From positions 38,426,821-38,490,820 of the forward strand of contig OX344750.2 in the NCBI GenBank assembly GCA_947034885.2: a stretch of DNA of 64,000 nt, given 5' to 3'. This DNA is from Thuidium tamariscinum. Its lineage: Eukaryota > Streptophyta > Bryopsida > Hypnales > Thuidiaceae. Under the pieces are notes generated by a model. That model was not told the origin of the DNA and searched no databases. It was given only the letters and a program-made list of their open reading frames with translations. The position numbers and the translations under genes were made by a program. Position 1 is the stretch's first letter, and every line of letters begins with the position of its first letter. This document shows positions 17,491 through 54,579 of the stretch, one piece after another.

Positions 17491-18896
17491 TGTACAGTGG
17501 GGTACCAATCAAAATGTCGTTTTTGAATCCGCAATGAGAAAAATTTCAACACTGCCAACTTTGAAAGGCTCGCGAGAGCTCAAAAATTGGTATTTTACCA
17601 CAAAATTTTTACCACAGCATCATCTTTAAGTTGATTATATGTATGCCAAATTTCAAGGCCAAAAAATTCACCAAAAAAAAGTTATTCAAAATCTACCAAC
17701 ATTGGTAGTTGTGGAAATTTTTTCACTGCTGCCAACTTTGACAGCCTCCCAAAGATTGAATTATTTTTTTTTTGCCATGAAATTTTTGTCATGAAACAAT
17801 ATCTATGTTTTTAATATGTATAAAAAATTTCAAGGTAAAATTTTCTTTTCTTAAGAAGATATTTGAAATCTCCCAACAAGTGTAGTTTTGAGAAATTTTT
17901 CACAATTGCCAACTTTGACACCCTTCCAAGAGCTGAAAAATTGGTTTCTTACTATGAATTTTTTTTTGTGAAGTCATCTCTATGTTGATAATATGTGCTC
18001 CAAATTTCAAGTTCAAATGAATTAACAAAAAAAAGATATACAAAATCTCCCAACATGCGTAGTTGTGAGAAAATTTTCACTATTGCCAACTTTGACACCC
18101 TCCCAAGGGCTGAAAATTTGTCTATTTAACATGAATTCTTTTTGAATAAGATCAACTTTATGTTGATAATATATGTTCCAAATTTCAAGTTCAAAACACT
18201 TACCCAAAAAAAGATATTCAAAATCTCTCAACATGTGTAGTTGTGCAGTTGAGTTTTTACATTTGTGTCAAACTTTGCTCCACAAAATAACATTATACTA
18301 AGGGCTCAAAAACTCCTCCTCACAACTACACATGTTGGGAGATTTTGTATATCTTTTTTTGTTAATTCATTTGAACTTGAAATTTGGAGCACATATTATC
18401 AACATAGAGATGACTTCACAAAAAAAAATTCATAGTAAGAAACCAATTTTTCAGCTCTTGGAAGGGTGTCAAAGTTGGCAATTGTGAAAAATTTCTCAAA
18501 ACTACACTTGTTGGGAGATTTCAAATATCTTCTTAAGAAAAGAAAATTTTACCTTGAAATTTTTTATACATATTAAAAACATAGATATTGTTTCATGACA
18601 AAAATTTCATGGCAAAAAAAAAATAATTCAATCTTTGGGAGGCTGTCAAAGTTGGCAGCAGTGAAAAAATTTCCACAACTACCAATGTTGGTAGATTTTG
18701 AATAACTTTTTTTTGGTGAATTTTTTGGCCTTGAAATTTGGCATACATATAATCAACTTAAAGATGATGCTGTGGTAAAAATTTTGTGGTAAAATACCAA
18801 TTTTTGAGCTCTCGGGAGCCTTTCAAAGTTGGCAGTGTTGAAATTTTTCTCACTGCGGATTCAAAAACGACATTTTGATTGGTACCCCACTGTACA
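17491..18896. repeat. Long near-perfect inverted repeat (579-bp and 578-bp arms, 249-bp loop)
   Basis: The left arm 17491-18069 and the right arm 18319-18896 are reverse complements with few mismatches from TGTACAGTGGGGTACC to CTCCCAACATG. Both arms consist of about three tandem units of 175-190 bp. Each unit contains TTGCCAACTTTGACA, then a CAAATTTCAAG phrase, then AAAATCTCCCAACA. The loop holds about one further, more diverged unit. A transcript would fold into a roughly 580-bp hairpin. No target duplication or protein was found. It could be a foldback transposon or a hairpin-RNA (siRNA) locus. Confidence 0.9.
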
Positions 18897-33480: not shown

Positions 33481-33838
33481 AACTTGAAATTTGTCTCATT
33501 GAAAACACATCCAAAAGAACTTTGAAAAGGTACATAAAAAAATTCAAATTTTGACATTAAACAAGTACCACAAGGTAAAAATCAGATGATATAGAGGTCT
33601 TTAGTTAGCAAATCACAGTTACCTTGAAAGCAAAATTTGGCCATTGACAATTTACAATTGGTCACATTTAGAGTGTCAATGGCCAAATTTAGCTCTAGTA
33701 ACTATGATTTGCTAAGACCTTTATAATTTTAGATTTTTACCTCATTTTTCACATACTCATCCAATGTCTAAATTTGTATTCTCTTGAACCTTCTTGCAAT
33801 TCTTTTGGATGTGCTTCCAATGATACAAATTTCAAGTT
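33481..33838. repeat. Inverted repeat about 200 bp downstream of UGT-A (arms about 170 bp)
   Basis: The arms share AACTTGAAATTTGT, CACATCCAAAAGAA, AGGTAAAAATC, TAGCAAATCA and AATTTGGCCATTGAC in mirrored order around a short loop near 33660. The match is imperfect (estimated 75-85%). This looks like an old foldback MITE. The UGT-A transcript could include it only if its 3' UTR is long. Confidence 0.7.
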
Positions 33839-34043
33839 CTCAGTATATACGGTTCAACAGTTAGAAATACAGTGAGAGGGTCAATATTCCAGTGATGCTT
33901 GAAGGTCCTCAAAGATTACAGTACAAGGGTAAGGGAAGTCTGCATGCAACTCTCTAAATTGCAAGCTGCAAGAAAACTCAAATTATCGCATTAGAGTCAC
34001 AATTGACTCAAGATTCATAAAAATATTGTAGGAGAATAACGTT

Positions 34044-36691
34044 TCATGATCGAAGTTCCTCCAGGAAAGTTTCCAAATTCTTCTGAACTGAGCCGCCCTC
34101 CTGAACCGCAGCCCTTGCTAACTCTTGCAGTTTTCGGACGTTATTTTTGGCCTTCACCCCTTGAGGTTCAGTCATCAGACGCCTTACCGCTGTAGAAATC
34201 CGCTCCTTCGTAACGAAATTGTCTGTCACTCTCGATATTTCGATGGCCGCCTTCACATCGTCTACAAAAAACCTGCAATTTCATTGGTGTCAGGTCAATT
34301 CTATGTCGCTCAAATTCAATGAAAGCAACACATTTGTCTTGCCAAACAAACCAACAGTCGTGAAGTCCAATAAGTTATGTTGGACACAAGGTCGAACAGA
34401 GCGGACGTTACAACCAGTTTCTGCACATAAAGTAATTCGAACATAAATTCCCTATTTTTTAGCTGCCACATAATATGTTGCCAAAGGATGGGAGCGTTAC
34501 TACACCCTATGTGGCCATTTCAAAACTGACGACTAAGGTCTAAGACTAACTGTAACGAACAAGAAACACAAATTACTTCAAGAGGTTGTCTTACATACTC
34601 AACAACAATCGAAGAAGGCATCAAACATCCGATGCCAGAAGCATGACATCAAAAACGTCGAACATGTCTCAGAAGAATTCAACCCAGAACAGTGAGAAAA
34701 CGATGCAATTCAATGCTTTCGTACAGTTCGGAAGCACGTTTGGTCCAAGAAGATACTCATGAGGGAGAAATTCGAGATCATCACCTGGCATTCATAGCCT
34801 GCTCGGCTTGAATTGGCCATGCAAGCATGGGCACGCCTCGACAGATACTCTCCAACGTGGAGTTCCAACCACAATGCGTCAAGAAACCAGCAACAGCGCG
34901 GTGCGAGAGCACATGAAGCTGCGGCGACCAACCAATGTACACATAACCTCGTCCCTCCATGCGTTCTTCAAAGCGTTCAGGGAGCAATGGCAAATTATCT
35001 GGGTTGTGTGGAGGACGAAGCACCAGCAGAAACCTTTGCCCGCTCTCTTCTAATCCCAGAACCAACTCTTGTATTTGACCAATAGAGAGAACTGCTACGC
35101 TGCCGTAGGAGACGTACACAACTGAAGACTCGGGCTGGGTGTCTAACCATTCTAAGCATGGATGGCGCCTTTCCATGTTCGCCGTTGTCTCAGCTCCACC
35201 GGTGCTGAAGTATGCCTTGGGTAACATTGGTCCAACTGGGAGAATACTCAACAGATGCCCTGCCTGCGCAGATCATACATAAGGTAACCATACTTTGAGC
35301 AGTGAGTATGTTAATTATTATCAGACTGACCAATATTGATACTCCCTCTGTTTCTGAATATTACGAGTGTTTCTTTTGTAAAATACAAAGCAAACCCTAG
35401 TATTATTCAGAAACAGAGGGAGTATTTGTTAGTAATTCAGGATATTTCAATGCACCTAAGTATGCCTTACTTAGATACTGGATGAAAGCCCAATAGTGAA
35501 GTTGACCTAAAACCGACACAAGTCCTGAAGTGAAGTTGATATACATTCTCAAAATCAATTTATGCTTCTCCAGCAAGATTTGAGAGTGTCGCATTGAGGT
35601 TTGCACTTCAAGAAAGATAGTGCTTTCGAAACACACCCGGCCATGGACATTTCCATAAATGGTTTTGCGAAGAACATCGATGTAGGCTGGCTCCAACTCG
35701 TAAAAAGAGTTGATAAGAACGCCCGTGGCTTCGTGCATATCCTCGCAGTTCTTGGCATAGAGAGTGTAAAAGCAGTCATTTGGATCCTGCATCGGCGATG
35801 GCAGATCGGCCAGACGCGTTGGTGGAACGCCGGGAATATCGTAAACGAGCTCCTCCTTCTTCGACGGATCAATCGGGAGTCGTCCCTGCCTCACAAGCTC
35901 CGGCATGTGCAGCATCGTTGCTAATGCAGAGGTTGGGGACGCAAACAAGACATACCTCGGAATCTTGAACTTGTTCGCAACAACCTGCACATACAATCAA
36001 GAGACGCCATGGCTCTTATCCTACCTACAATAGCTGCTACAGGATAGAAACGCCATTTGCAACATTGCTTTCCTGCATAGATTTGCTACGGTTTCCGCAA
36101 TTTGTTACAGAAAACCGTTTTTCAACAAATTGAAATAACTAGTACACGCAACACTGCTACAAGAACTTTTTCACGATGTAAGTTGCAACAGTCTTTCAAC
36201 GATTAGTTACCTAGCTGAATATTCCGCCATGTAGTTGTCACAGCACAACCAGTGCCAAATGACGAAGAGAAGCTACTCACCTGCGTCCATCCTAAGAACA
36301 TATCACTGACAATGCAAGCGGGAGGAGCGTCTTCGTTCTTTGCAAAAAGCTCTGCAACCATAACCTCGAAAGCACCGACAAGCTCATTCACGTGCTTCAC
36401 GTACGGCAATGCCGATCCAAGGCCCTCCCCCTCCGCTGGCGGCTCCCCGAGCGGCAGCACGCTCATACTACTCCCATCCAGACCATCCAGCGTCCTGAAA
36501 TGCTCCTTCGACAGATGACTGAACGTGTTGACGTAAGTGACTACCATGTCCATGGAGTGAAGTCGCTTGGCAAAGTGAAGCAACGGAATGCTGTGCCCCT
36601 TGGCTGGATATGGCAGCACCACTGCATGGAGCTTCCGTTTGCTCCGTGACTCCTTCGTTTGCTGCTGCAGCTCCGCAAGCAATATCGTCAT
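34044..36691 (-). CDS. UDP-glycosyltransferase (UGT-A), four exons, 488 aa
   Basis: Transfers sugar from a UDP-sugar to a small acceptor in the cytosol (family 1 plant UGT); the acceptor is unknown. Exons: 36691-36281, 35984-35637, 35263-34785, 34272-34044. All introns are GT-AG, in phases 0, 0 and 2. Catalytic His33 lies in KGHSIPLLH, and its partner Asp130 in [10 protein letters not shown]. The 44-residue donor-binding PSPG box is intact at 365-408 (starts WSPQ, contains HCGWNS, ends AEQ). The final Gln usually favours UDP-glucose. Length is normal for the family. This is the minus-strand partner of UGT-B, with exon sizes 411/348/479/229 against 408/348/479/229. Intron 2 contains a Stowaway-like MITE that UGT-B lacks. 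34478-35082 shows no difference from UGT-B over 605 bases. Confidence 0.93.
35342..35422. mobile_element. Stowaway-like MITE in UGT-A intron 2 (81 bp)
   Basis: TA flanks both sides (35340-35341 and 35423-35424). The ends are CTCCCTCTGTTTCTGAATA and its inverse, matching the Stowaway CTCCCTC TIR consensus. The element is almost entirely palindromic. UGT-B intron 2 lacks it at the corresponding position: after subtracting it and the TA, the introns are 290 and 282 bp. It therefore inserted after the genes diverged, or was lost from UGT-B. Confidence 0.9.
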
Positions 36692-37250
36692 CTCGCTCGT
36701 CTCAAACAGAAGCTGCTATATTCCGATCACGAGAAATCACCAATACTCCTTCAAATTGCACGCAGTAAGCTCCACCTCGGCAGAAGAAACGATCGAAAAC
36801 AATGCAAATTCGAAAGAGAATGATGTCCTTGGACTAGTTGATGCCGTGATTGACCTACCATGAACAACTCATTCGCGCGAGTGCCATCTTCTCACAGTTG
36901 CTGAAGTTAAGGACCGCTGTACGAAGGACCGCTGTATGCAATGATGGGAGGTCACTGCAGTACTTCAGAGCTACGTACAGTCAGGCAGACACATGCCGCA
37001 AGACAACTTCGAATGGTATCAAATTCCGAATGAAAGCAAACTAGAAGTCGTTCAACTGAGAATCGAGAATCTGTCTACTCAACCGGCTTTGAGAAAATTT
37101 TGCACAAGCACTTCAGCGGAGGACGACGACGAGAACGTGCGCGGCCTCGTGCGCGGCTTGGAGGCACCCCTACGAAAGGGCCGGCCTGTGAAAGTGGGCA
37201 AATGTATCAGGGCTCTGTAATAGCTGGAATTTTGAAATTTTCTTCAGGGA
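36692..37250 (-). promoter_or_regulatory. UGT-A 5' flank, homologous to the UGT-B 5' flank
   Basis: The region aligns in inverted orientation with about 51180-51794 upstream of UGT-B. Conserved blocks include ATTTGCCCACTTTCACAG, TGAAGAAAATTTCAAA and the last 100 bases before the ATG. The homology stops near 37250, where repeat E1 begins, marking the outer edge of the duplication. No clear TATA box was placed. Confidence 0.6.
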
Positions 37251-37259
37251 TTTGAAATC

Positions 37260-50760: not shown

Positions 50761-51794
50761 TTCCTATAGGCTTGGTGCCAGGCCAACAAATTTGGTGCAA
50801 TTTTGCACCAAATCGCCAGAAAAAAAAACCTTGCTTTGAAGCAGTACTGACGCAGTTTGCGGGGTGCCTCCCGACGGGGTGGCCATGGCGCCCGTCGTTA
50901 CAGGGTCAAGATATCGCTGCCTGACTTTCTATCCGGAGGACAATGTATGTAAGCATTGCGTGTTGAAGCTAGCGTCCGACTCATAAATTGACTGAGAATC
51001 AGAAATCTGATAGAGAACACGCTCAGACATTTTCCCAAACTATTTGCAGTTTTAATTGGCACGCAGAGCTCGGGCCTCTTCTGCGGTGTTTGTCTCTGAA
51101 ATTCTTCCTCGAACTCAGACGGTCGGGTTCACTGGCGTTACACGATTTTGCACAGTTTCGCATTCGGAAACCGACTTCCAATTTGGAGTCGCTGAAGAAA
51201 ATTTCAAAGTTCAAGCTGTTTTGAGTGCACACCGACAGAGTACTTTTACATTTGCCCACTTTCACAGAAGTGCTTTACCACTCAGTTTCGACCTTAATTT
51301 GTGTAGAGCTGCCTCCAAGCCACGCGGGCTGTTCTCGTTGTCGCCCTCCGCTAAACTGCGTGTGTAAATTTCTCAAAGCCGCTAAGATAGGTGGATTCAC
51401 CGTTGCAATTCTTAGTTGGACGACTTCTAATTTGCTTACATTCGAACTTTGATACCATTCGAAGTTCTCTTCCGATCTGTGTCTGCCTGCAGCAATTTTA
51501 GCAGATTGCTTACAGGTAGAGTCCTGCTGTGATCACCAATCGTTATATACACCGGTTCTTGGTACAGCGGTCCTTTGTGCATATTAACTTCAGCAACTGT
51601 GGAGATGATGGCAGTCGCGCGAACAAGTTGTTCGTGGTAGGTCAATCACGGCAACTGTTAGTCCGTGGACATCATTCTGTTTCGAATTTGCATTGTTTTT
51701 CGTTTCTTCTGCCAAGGTGGAGCCTACTGCGTGCAATTTGAAGGAGTATTGGTGATATCTCGTGATCGGATTAGAGACCCCTGTTTGAGACAAG
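50760..51794 (+). promoter_or_regulatory. UGT-B 5' flank (GC-rich outer part, inner part shared with UGT-A)
   Basis: 51180-51794 aligns in inverted orientation with the UGT-A 5' flank. The outer part, 50760-51180, has no counterpart at UGT-A, where repeat E1 lies instead. It is GC-rich and includes a 33-codon ATG ORF at 50885-50986 containing CKHC. That ORF may be an unrelated small gene, a leader ORF or chance. Confidence 0.5.
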
Positions 51795-54403
51795 ATGACG
51801 AAAGCACTTGCGGAGCTGCAGCAGCAAACGAAGGAGTCACGGAGCAAACGAAAGCTCCATGTAGTGTTGATGCCATACCCGTCCAAGGGGCACAGCATTC
51901 CGTTGCTTCACTTCGCCAAGCGTCTGCACTCCATGGACGTGGTGGTCACTTACGTCAATGCGTTCAGTCATCTGTCGAAGGAGCATTTCAGGACGCTGGA
52001 TGGCGTGGATGGGAGTAGTATGAGCGTGCTGCCGCTCGGGGAGCCGCCAGCGGATGGAGAGGGCCATGGATCGTTGCCGTATGTGATGCACGTGAATGAA
52101 CTTGTCAGTGCTTTCGAGGTTATGGTTGCAGAGCTTTTTGCAAAGAACGAAGACGCTCCTCCCGCTTGCATTGTCAGTGATATGTTCTTAGGATGGACGC
52201 AGGTGAGTAGCTTCTCTTTGTCATTTGGCACTGGTTGTGCTGTGACAACTACGTGGCGGAATATTTAGCTAGGTAACTAATGGTTGAAAGACTGTTGTAA
52301 CTTACAACGTCAAAAAGTCCTTGTAGCAGTGTTGTATGTACTAGTTATTTCAATTTGTTGAAAATCGGTGGCGTACTTTTTTGTAACAAATTGCGCAAAC
52401 CATATCGAAGTTATGGAGATGAGAATTGTCTAAATGCTCAACTGAAAGCAAGACCGTATTGCAAATGGCGTTTTCTATCCTGTAGCAGCTATTGTAGGGA
52501 GGGTTTCGAGAGTGTCTGGATAAGAGCCATAGCGTTTCTTGATTGTGTGTGCAGGTTGTTGCGAACAAGTTCAAGATTCCGAGGTATGCCTTGTTTCCGT
52601 CCACAGGGCATGGATTAGCAACGTTTCTGCACAGGCCGGAGCTTGTGAGGCAGGGACGACTCCCGATCGATCCGTCGAAGAAGGAGGAGCTCGTTTACGA
52701 CATTCCCGGCGTTCCGCCAACGCGTCTGGTCGATCTGCCATCGCCGATGCAGGATCCGAATGACATCATGTATTCTTTCTATGCCAAGAACTGCGAGGAT
52801 ATGCATGAAGCCACGGGCGTTTTTATCAACTCTTTTTACGAGTTGGAGCCAGCCTACATCGATGTTCTTCGCAAAACCATTTATGGAAATGTCCATGGCC
52901 AGGTGTGTTTCGCAAGCATTATCTATTTGAATTGCAAACCAAAATGCGACAAGTGTCAAATCTTGCTGATGGAGCACATATTGATTTGGAAAATGTACAT
53001 CAACTCGGTTTCAGGACTTGTGTCGGTTCTAGGTCAACTTTGACTATTGGGTTTTCATACAGTATTCAAAATCAGGCATGCTTAGGTGCATTGGAATTCC
53101 CTGATTTACTAAGTAACAAGTATCAGTCTGTCAGTAGTAAAAATACTGTTGAAAGAATGGTTACCTTACGTATGATCTTCACAGACAGGGCATCTGTTGA
53201 GCATTCTCCCAGTTGGACCAATTTTGCCCAAGGCATACTTCAGCACCGATGGAGCTGAGACAACGGCGAGCACGGAAAGGCGCCATCCATGCTTAGAATG
53301 GTTAGACACCCAGCCCGAGTCTTCAGTTGTTTACATCTCCTACGGCAGCATATCAGTTCTCTCTGTTGGTCAAATACAAGAGTTGGTTCTGGGATTAGAA
53401 GAGAGCGGGCAAAGGTTTCTGCTGGTGCTTCGTCCTCCACACAACCCAGATAATTTGCCATTGCTCCCTGAACGCTTTGAAGAACGCATGGAGGGACGAG
53501 GTTATGTGTACATTGGTTGGTCGCCGCAGCTTCATGTGCTCTCGCACCGCGCTGTTGCTGGTTTCTTGACGCATTGTGGTTGGAACTCCACGTTGGAGAG
53601 TATCTGTCGAGGCGTGCCCATGCTTGCATGGCCAATTCAAGCCGAGCAGGCTATGAATGCCAGGTGATGATCTCGAATTTCTCCCTCATGAGTATCTTCT
53701 TGGACCAAACGTGCTTCCGAACTGTACGAAAGCATTGAATTGCATCGTTTTCTCACTGTTCTGGGTTGAATTCTTCTGAGACATGTTCGACGTTTTTGAT
53801 GTCATGCTTCTGGCATCGGATGTTTGATGCCTTCTTCGATTGTTGTTGAGTATGTAAGACAACCTCTTGAAGTAATTTGTGTTTCTTGTTCGTTACAGTT
53901 AGTCTTAGACCTTAGTCGTCAGTTTTGAAATGGCCACATAGGGTGTAGTAACGCTCCCATCCTTTGGCAATATATTATGTGGCAGCTAAAAAATAGAGAA
54001 TTTATGTTCGAATTACTTCTTGTGCAGAAACTGATTGTAACGTCCGCTCTGTTCGACCTTGTGTCCAACATAACTTATTGGACTTCATGATTGTTGGTTT
54101 GTTTGGCAAGACAAATGTGTTGCTTTCATTGAATTTAGCGACATAGAATTGACCTGACACCAATGAAATTGCAGGTTTCTTGTAGACGATGTGAAGGCGG
54201 CCATCGAAATATCGAGAGTGACAGACAATTTCGTCACGAAGGAGCGGATTTCTACAGCCATGAGGCGTCTGATGACCGAACCTGAAGGGGTGATTGTTAG
54301 AAACAACGTCCGAAAACTGCAAGAGTTAGCAAGGGCTGCGGTTCAGGAGGGCGGCTCAGTTCAGAAGAATTTGGAAACTTTCCTGGAGGAACTTCGATCA
54401 TGA
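51795..54403 (+). CDS. UDP-glycosyltransferase (UGT-B), four exons, 487 aa
   Basis: Family 1 plant UGT; the acceptor is unknown. Exons: 51795-52202, 52555-52902, 53185-53663, 54175-54403, with GT-AG introns of 352, 282 and 511 bp in phases 0, 0 and 2. Catalytic His33 lies in KGHSIPLLH and Asp129 in [10 protein letters not shown]. The PSPG donor box is intact at 364-407, with HCGWNS and a terminal Gln that usually favours UDP-glucose. Length and domain order are normal. Its ATG faces that of UGT-A across 15.1 kb. N-terminal (acceptor-binding) exons 1-2 differ at scattered residues, for example ALFPSTGHG here against VLFASPTSA in UGT-A. 53366-53970 shows no difference from UGT-A. The two could therefore share donor use but differ in acceptor choice. 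Confidence 0.94.
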
Positions 54404-54579
54404 GACGCTATTCTCCTACAATATTTTTATGAATCTTGAATCAATTGTGATTCCGGAATACAATAATTTGAGTTTCCTTGTGGCTTTTCTAAGCCATTTT
54501 GAGAGTTGCGTGCAGACTTCCCATACTGTTGTTATCGAGAGGACTTCGCATCTTGAACTCTAAATTTTGAGTGCAAGTG
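54404..54579 (+). other. UGT-B 3' flank, end of the inverted duplication
   Basis: Similar in inverted orientation to about 33880-34043 downstream of UGT-A (CTCCTACAATATTTTTATGA is shared). It includes AATACAATAATT, a possible polyadenylation-signal context. Homology fades by about 54560. Confidence 0.5.

Follow-up and report, generated by a model that had tools for sequence, protein, structure and literature searches.

Recent interlocus (ectopic) gene conversion very probably copied at least 605 bp from one onto the other of two predicted UDP-glycosyltransferase (UGT) genes, inverted paralogs lying ~18 kb apart in the genome of Thuidium tamariscinum. The window analysed is a stretch of 64,000 nucleotides (assembly GCA_947034885.2, contig OX344750.2, positions 38,426,821 to 38,490,820 of the forward strand), and window coordinates are given throughout unless a contig is named. 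Conversion is favoured because the run of identity is statistically significant, ends abruptly, includes intronic and synonymous sites, lies in a segment showing no sign of long-term constraint, and has no third near-identical copy among the matches listed in a genome search.

UGT-A and UGT-B, as the two genes are called here, are both predicted to be plant UDPGT genes with four exons and an open frame; they are mutually inverted, and their translations run to 489 and 488 letters, respectively, including the stop. Their introns have GT/AG borders and sit where those of a paralog on contig C5 do. Each gene lies within a duplicated unit, the units being separated by 13.9 kb:

33923..37258, minus strand: duplicated unit A, the gene with ~0.55 kb upstream and ~0.1 kb downstream, delimited by blastn homology
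36281..36691, minus strand: UGT-A exon 1 (predicted), from the open frame, GT donor and alignment to UGT-B and the C5 paralog
35637..35984, minus strand: UGT-A exon 2 (predicted), from GT/AG junctions with the reading frame kept
34786..35263, minus strand: UGT-A exon 3 (predicted), frame kept, the UGT-B counterpart matching Pfam UDPGT PF00201
34044..34273, minus strand: UGT-A exon 4 with stop (predicted), from alignment
51181..54532, plus strand: duplicated unit B, inverted relative to A, delimited by blastn homology
51795..52202, plus strand: UGT-B exon 1 (predicted), from alignment
52555..52902, plus strand: UGT-B exon 2 (predicted), from alignment
53185..53662, plus strand: UGT-B exon 3 (predicted), matching Pfam UDPGT PF00201 (E 5.6e-19)
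54174..54403, plus strand: UGT-B exon 4 with stop (predicted), from alignment

Beside the UDPGT match of UGT-B exon 3, the Pfam searches returned 0 families for UGT-A exons 1-2 alone and no family for eight other ORFs of the window. The best solved-structure match of UGT-B was 2vce, hydroquinone glucosyltransferase (E 1.5e-72), which we take to be UGT72B1. The UDPGT profile, the similarity to a solved UGT and the 44-aa PSPG box point to UGT-A and UGT-B as predicted plant GT1 UDP-glycosyltransferases. The name UGT72B1 is applied to d2vcha1 in PMC4340967. Just past the 3′ end of unit A, a 358-bp element with imperfect inverted arms occupies 33481-33838.

Compared letter for letter, the reverse complement of UGT-A 34478-35082 and UGT-B 53366-53970 are identical at 605/605 bases, and the tract is maximal, the nearest A/B differences standing directly beyond its edges at A 35083 and A 34477. 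Its exonic share is the 3′ part of exon 3 (297 of 478 nt, 34786-35082) and its intronic share the first 308 of the 512 nt of intron 3 (60%); UGT-A codons 314-413 are covered, and the whole PSPG box lies inside, identical in A and B:

34478..35082, minus strand: identical, putatively converted tract in UGT-A, edges at 35083/34477
53366..53970, plus strand: identical tract in UGT-B
34799..34930, minus strand: PSPG donor box of UGT-A (44 aa), wholly within the tract
53518..53649, plus strand: PSPG donor box of UGT-B, wholly within the tract

The sequence-only reading had described two stretches of equal length without visible mismatch, holding the 3′ part of exon 3 with the complete box and 60% of intron 3, in paralogs that differ by several percent on both sides; the A/B alignment, in which no mismatch occurs within the 605 bases, bears out this description. 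Outside the tract, differences at ungapped sites amount to 27/408 in exon 1 (6.6%), 27/348 in exon 2 (7.8%), 12/181 in the remaining, 5′ part of exon 3 (6.6%) and 13/230 in exon 4 (5.7%), so that exons range over 5.7-7.8%. Introns range over 3.5-18.6%, with 29/296 in intron 1 (9.8%), 52/279 in intron 2 (18.6%) and 7/203 in the remainder of intron 3 (3.45%), the lowest segment, and the 5′ flank and the 3′ end reach 17.6% and 13.2%, respectively. The A/B dS outside the tract is 0.113.

When the differences were shuffled under the assumption of one rate throughout the region, a run of 605 or more appeared in 0 of 20,000 shuffles for each of the whole unit, the 3′ block and the stretch from exon 3 to the 3′ end, the longest shuffled runs being 168, 283 and 310, respectively. 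Inside the tract, 0 of 308 intron sites and 0 of ~69 synonymous sites have changed; even if the lowest local neutral rate is applied (3.45%, from the intron 3 remainder), ~376 silent sites would all stay unchanged with a probability of only 1.8e-6. The 95% upper bound on divergence within the tract is ~0.5% for all sites and ~0.8% for silent sites, and since the latter compares with a dS of 0.113 outside, the event would date to at most roughly 7% of the pair's silent-divergence time.

It is barely credible that both gene parts were held identical by a mutation cold spot or by purifying selection. In favour of this explanation are the coding nature of exon 3 and the conserved character of the PSPG motif, yet the unchanged sites include the 308 intronic bases and the ~69 synonymous sites, and comparison of the same exon segment with the C5 paralog finds 48 of 70.5 synonymous sites changed (dS 1.79, near saturation) and 22 amino acid replacements across 99 tract codons. 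Over longer times the tract has not been evolving slowly, because its dS to C5 exceeds that of exons 1, 2 and 4 (0.77-0.98) and resembles that of the rest of exon 3 (1.71-2.29); constraint and a cold spot were rejected on the near-saturation of these synonymous sites. Highly unlikely, too, is an assembly or polishing artefact in which both copies were built from the reads of one and came out identical in the consensus. The copies are known from the assembly consensus alone (363 Mb, 19 contigs; window without N), which leaves room for such an error; against it stand the differences at the base beyond each edge and the 3.5-18.6% divergence per segment outside the tract, owing to which long reads should be placeable. 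Assembly collapse does not normally end at internal single-base differences, and a 983-bp island in another UGT cluster, described below, would require the same error twice. Gene conversion, as proposed in the sequence-only reading, is well supported by the shuffles, the sharp edges, the unchanged silent sites and the dS to C5.

Under conversion, the part copied from one UGT copy onto the other would comprise the 3′ part of exon 3 and the 5′ part of intron 3, at least 605 bp in all. A break in one copy may have been repaired on the inverted paralog as template, located on the same or the sister chromatid, probably without crossover. With the tract as query against the whole genome, the matches listed were the two copies and the C5 paralog (75% over 295 bp); a third, near-identical donor copy was sought and none was among them, in a search that scored the best candidates only and read withheld stretches as N, so exchange between A and B is the most likely route. 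Polarisation by C5 outside the tract assigned 26 nucleotide differences as derived on A and 44 on B, with 9 unresolved (two-sided binomial p 0.041 for 44 against 26), which shows more change on B and says nothing on the donor; inside the identical tract, C5, at 75% the nearest other paralog, cannot separate donor from recipient. For C. elegans, Semple and Wolfe, whose work is cited in PMC3966223, are reported to have found conversion favoured between paralogs that share an orientation and lie close together, at 1-8 kb. An inverted pair ~18 kb apart departs from this preference, which counts against conversion, though PMC3966223 cites inverted cases too.

The background around the tract is uneven. 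Intron 3 beyond the tract is less divergent than introns 1 and 2 together (7/203 vs 81/575, Fisher p 8.9e-6) and than intron 1 alone (p 0.008); as this remainder is already low, divergence reaches unequal levels on the two sides of the tract, and since it adjoins the tract while diverging less than the other introns, the similarity may be older in part. In an HMM segmentation, BIC favours two rate classes (1872.0) over three (1877.5). Under two classes the tract becomes part of a block of 1,066 sites with few differences (21, over 34192-35257), and the three-class model isolates 582 tract sites; BIC thus gives the tract no separate class, which counts against the conversion reading. The second-longest identical run is unusual too:

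36265..36375, minus strand: identical run of 111 bp, from the end of exon 1 into intron 1

Its P is 0.00035 with the 605-bp tract omitted and 0.0011 inside exon 1 and intron 1, and it is possibly an older or shorter conversion tract. The low remainder of intron 3 and the 111-bp run could reflect older conversion or local constraint.

The further claim that the two enzymes share a donor site and differ in their acceptor halves holds in one respect, the donor boxes being identical by sequence, and is otherwise overstated and weakly supported. Even without conversion the donor sites could well have been equal, given that the PSPG box is conserved as far out as the distant C5 paralog, in which only 6 of its 44 residues differ. 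A and B still differ at 6/75 residues in exon 4 and at 9/61 in the opening 61 codons of exon 3, and both of these segments should encode part of the C-terminal domain. The A/B pair has 43 amino acid differences in total, 28 of them in exons 1-2.

Within exon 2, a patch at A 35951-35906 has 8 of 16 codons differing between A and B, 0 of them synonymously (scan P 0.011; Fisher 8.6e-5, uncorrected for the choice of patch). Changes derived on B alone account for 6/16 (P 0.008), and A differs from C5 at 2/16 of these codons. In the same codon scans, A-derived changes (best 2/16, P 0.92) and synonymous changes (5/16, P 0.17) are unclustered, and A/C5 differences cluster elsewhere, in exon 3 (13/16, P 0.0016); the five clustering scans are uncorrected and their shuffles use uniform rates. 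The patch reads VLFASPTSALATMLHM within a 17-residue stretch in UGT-B and VLFASPAPALATMLHM in the outgroup. In the structure-match alignment, counted by hand with the catalytic Asp117 as anchor, UGT-B has its M-to-F change at the position of Phe148 of UGT72B1, an acceptor-pocket residue according to PMC3828253. A changed acceptor choice in UGT-B is our guess from these residues, and the B-specific patch makes it a testable one. A second patch of clustered A/B amino acid differences in exon 2 is seen at window 35762-35774 and its UGT-B counterpart. Micro-conversion from another paralog was considered as the source of the two exon 2 patches of UGT-B and rejected, the search for each having listed only B, A and C5.

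An extension of the preferred explanation, compatible with it, would make the 3′ homogenisation and the exon 2 patch one opsin-like process, in which conversion recurs and selection keeps the acceptor-site differences. Although the lower divergence of intron 3 outside the tract relative to introns 1 and 2, the second unusual run of 111 bp and the clustered amino acid differences of exon 2, one aligned with Phe148 of UGT72B1, all agree with it, we consider it unlikely: it is drawn from two copies and one outgroup only, the shuffles assume uniform rates, the five scans are uncorrected, and the exon 2 patch could be ordinary post-duplication divergence. Red and green opsins offer a precedent for divergence kept amid conversion (PMC3924837). 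Its more specific form, with repeated conversion of the donor half and selection holding apart the acceptor-pocket patch of UGT-B exon 2 as an opsin-like 'divergence peak within conversion', is a speculative and rather improbable one.

Identity islands of this kind occur beyond the A/B pair in UGTs of this genome. Another UGT cluster, on contig C8, was sampled as five stretches giving 10 pairs and 29 blastn segments (at most 4 per pair); in 8 of the 29 segments the longest identical run had a shuffle P of 0.0005 or less (2,000 shuffles), coding constraint being left uncorrected. The strongest case, a run of 983 bp, joins C8:17017302-17018284 and 17057617-17058599 (loci L067 and L068) and consists of the 3′ 687 bases of an open frame plus 296 bp of 3′ flank, with mismatch around it, per 200 columns, of ~4-8% on one side and ~0.5-4% on the other. 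As in A and B, the identical run lies on the 3′ coding part; unlike A and B, the two C8 loci are on the same strand, ~40 kb apart, and the run enters the 3′ flank, whereas that of A and B enters an intron. Conversion may be recurring among UGTs of the Thuidium tamariscinum genome, for which reason UGT trees and dN/dS would be better done segment by segment.

Taken by itself, the A/B tract is most probably gene conversion in a clean form, and nothing out of the ordinary. Conversion tracts of this sort make duplicates look younger than they are and blur trees built on the C-terminal half. Interlocus conversion of linked paralogs, as treated in PMC3966223 for Caenorhabditis and in PMC3924837 in theory, is alike in its tracts of several hundred bp, its chimeric products and the inverted pairs cited; nothing fundamental sets A and B apart, the particulars here being a plant UGT pair, inverted and ~18 kb apart. 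Among the titles and abstract openings of the open-access literature searched, no paper on gene conversion in plant UGTs was found. Vertebrate UGT1 genes owe their shared half to common constant exons, unlike A and B, which would be two separate full genes homogenised over part of their length. The vertebrate UGT1/UGT2 clusters are alike in consisting of UDPGT paralogs with greater variation in the acceptor halves than in the donor half, and no prevalent gene conversion is reported for the Ugt1, Gcnt2 and Ugt2 clusters, dog Ugt1 excepted (PMC1885805).

Repeats and gene fragments accompany the pair. Intron 2 of UGT-A carries an insertion absent from UGT-B:

35339..35425, no strand assigned: 87-bp palindromic MITE-like insertion

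Its inverted arms are 88% complementary, with CTCCCTCTGTTTC-type ends and TA flanks; it recurs at 34 or more other places in the genome, and we take it to be a Stowaway-like MITE. Elsewhere in the window, 17491-18896 is a complex of inverted and direct repeats whose arms are 99.3% identical over 579 bp. On contig C8, a 184-bp locus (L033, C8:23931807-23931990) corresponds to window 35460-35651, from the final ~15 bp of exon 2 into the beginning of intron 2, and matches UGT-A at 90% and UGT-B at 81%; by its similarity it would be a fragment that was captured or dispersed. Intron 2 also has weaker matches on contigs C10, C1 and C2.
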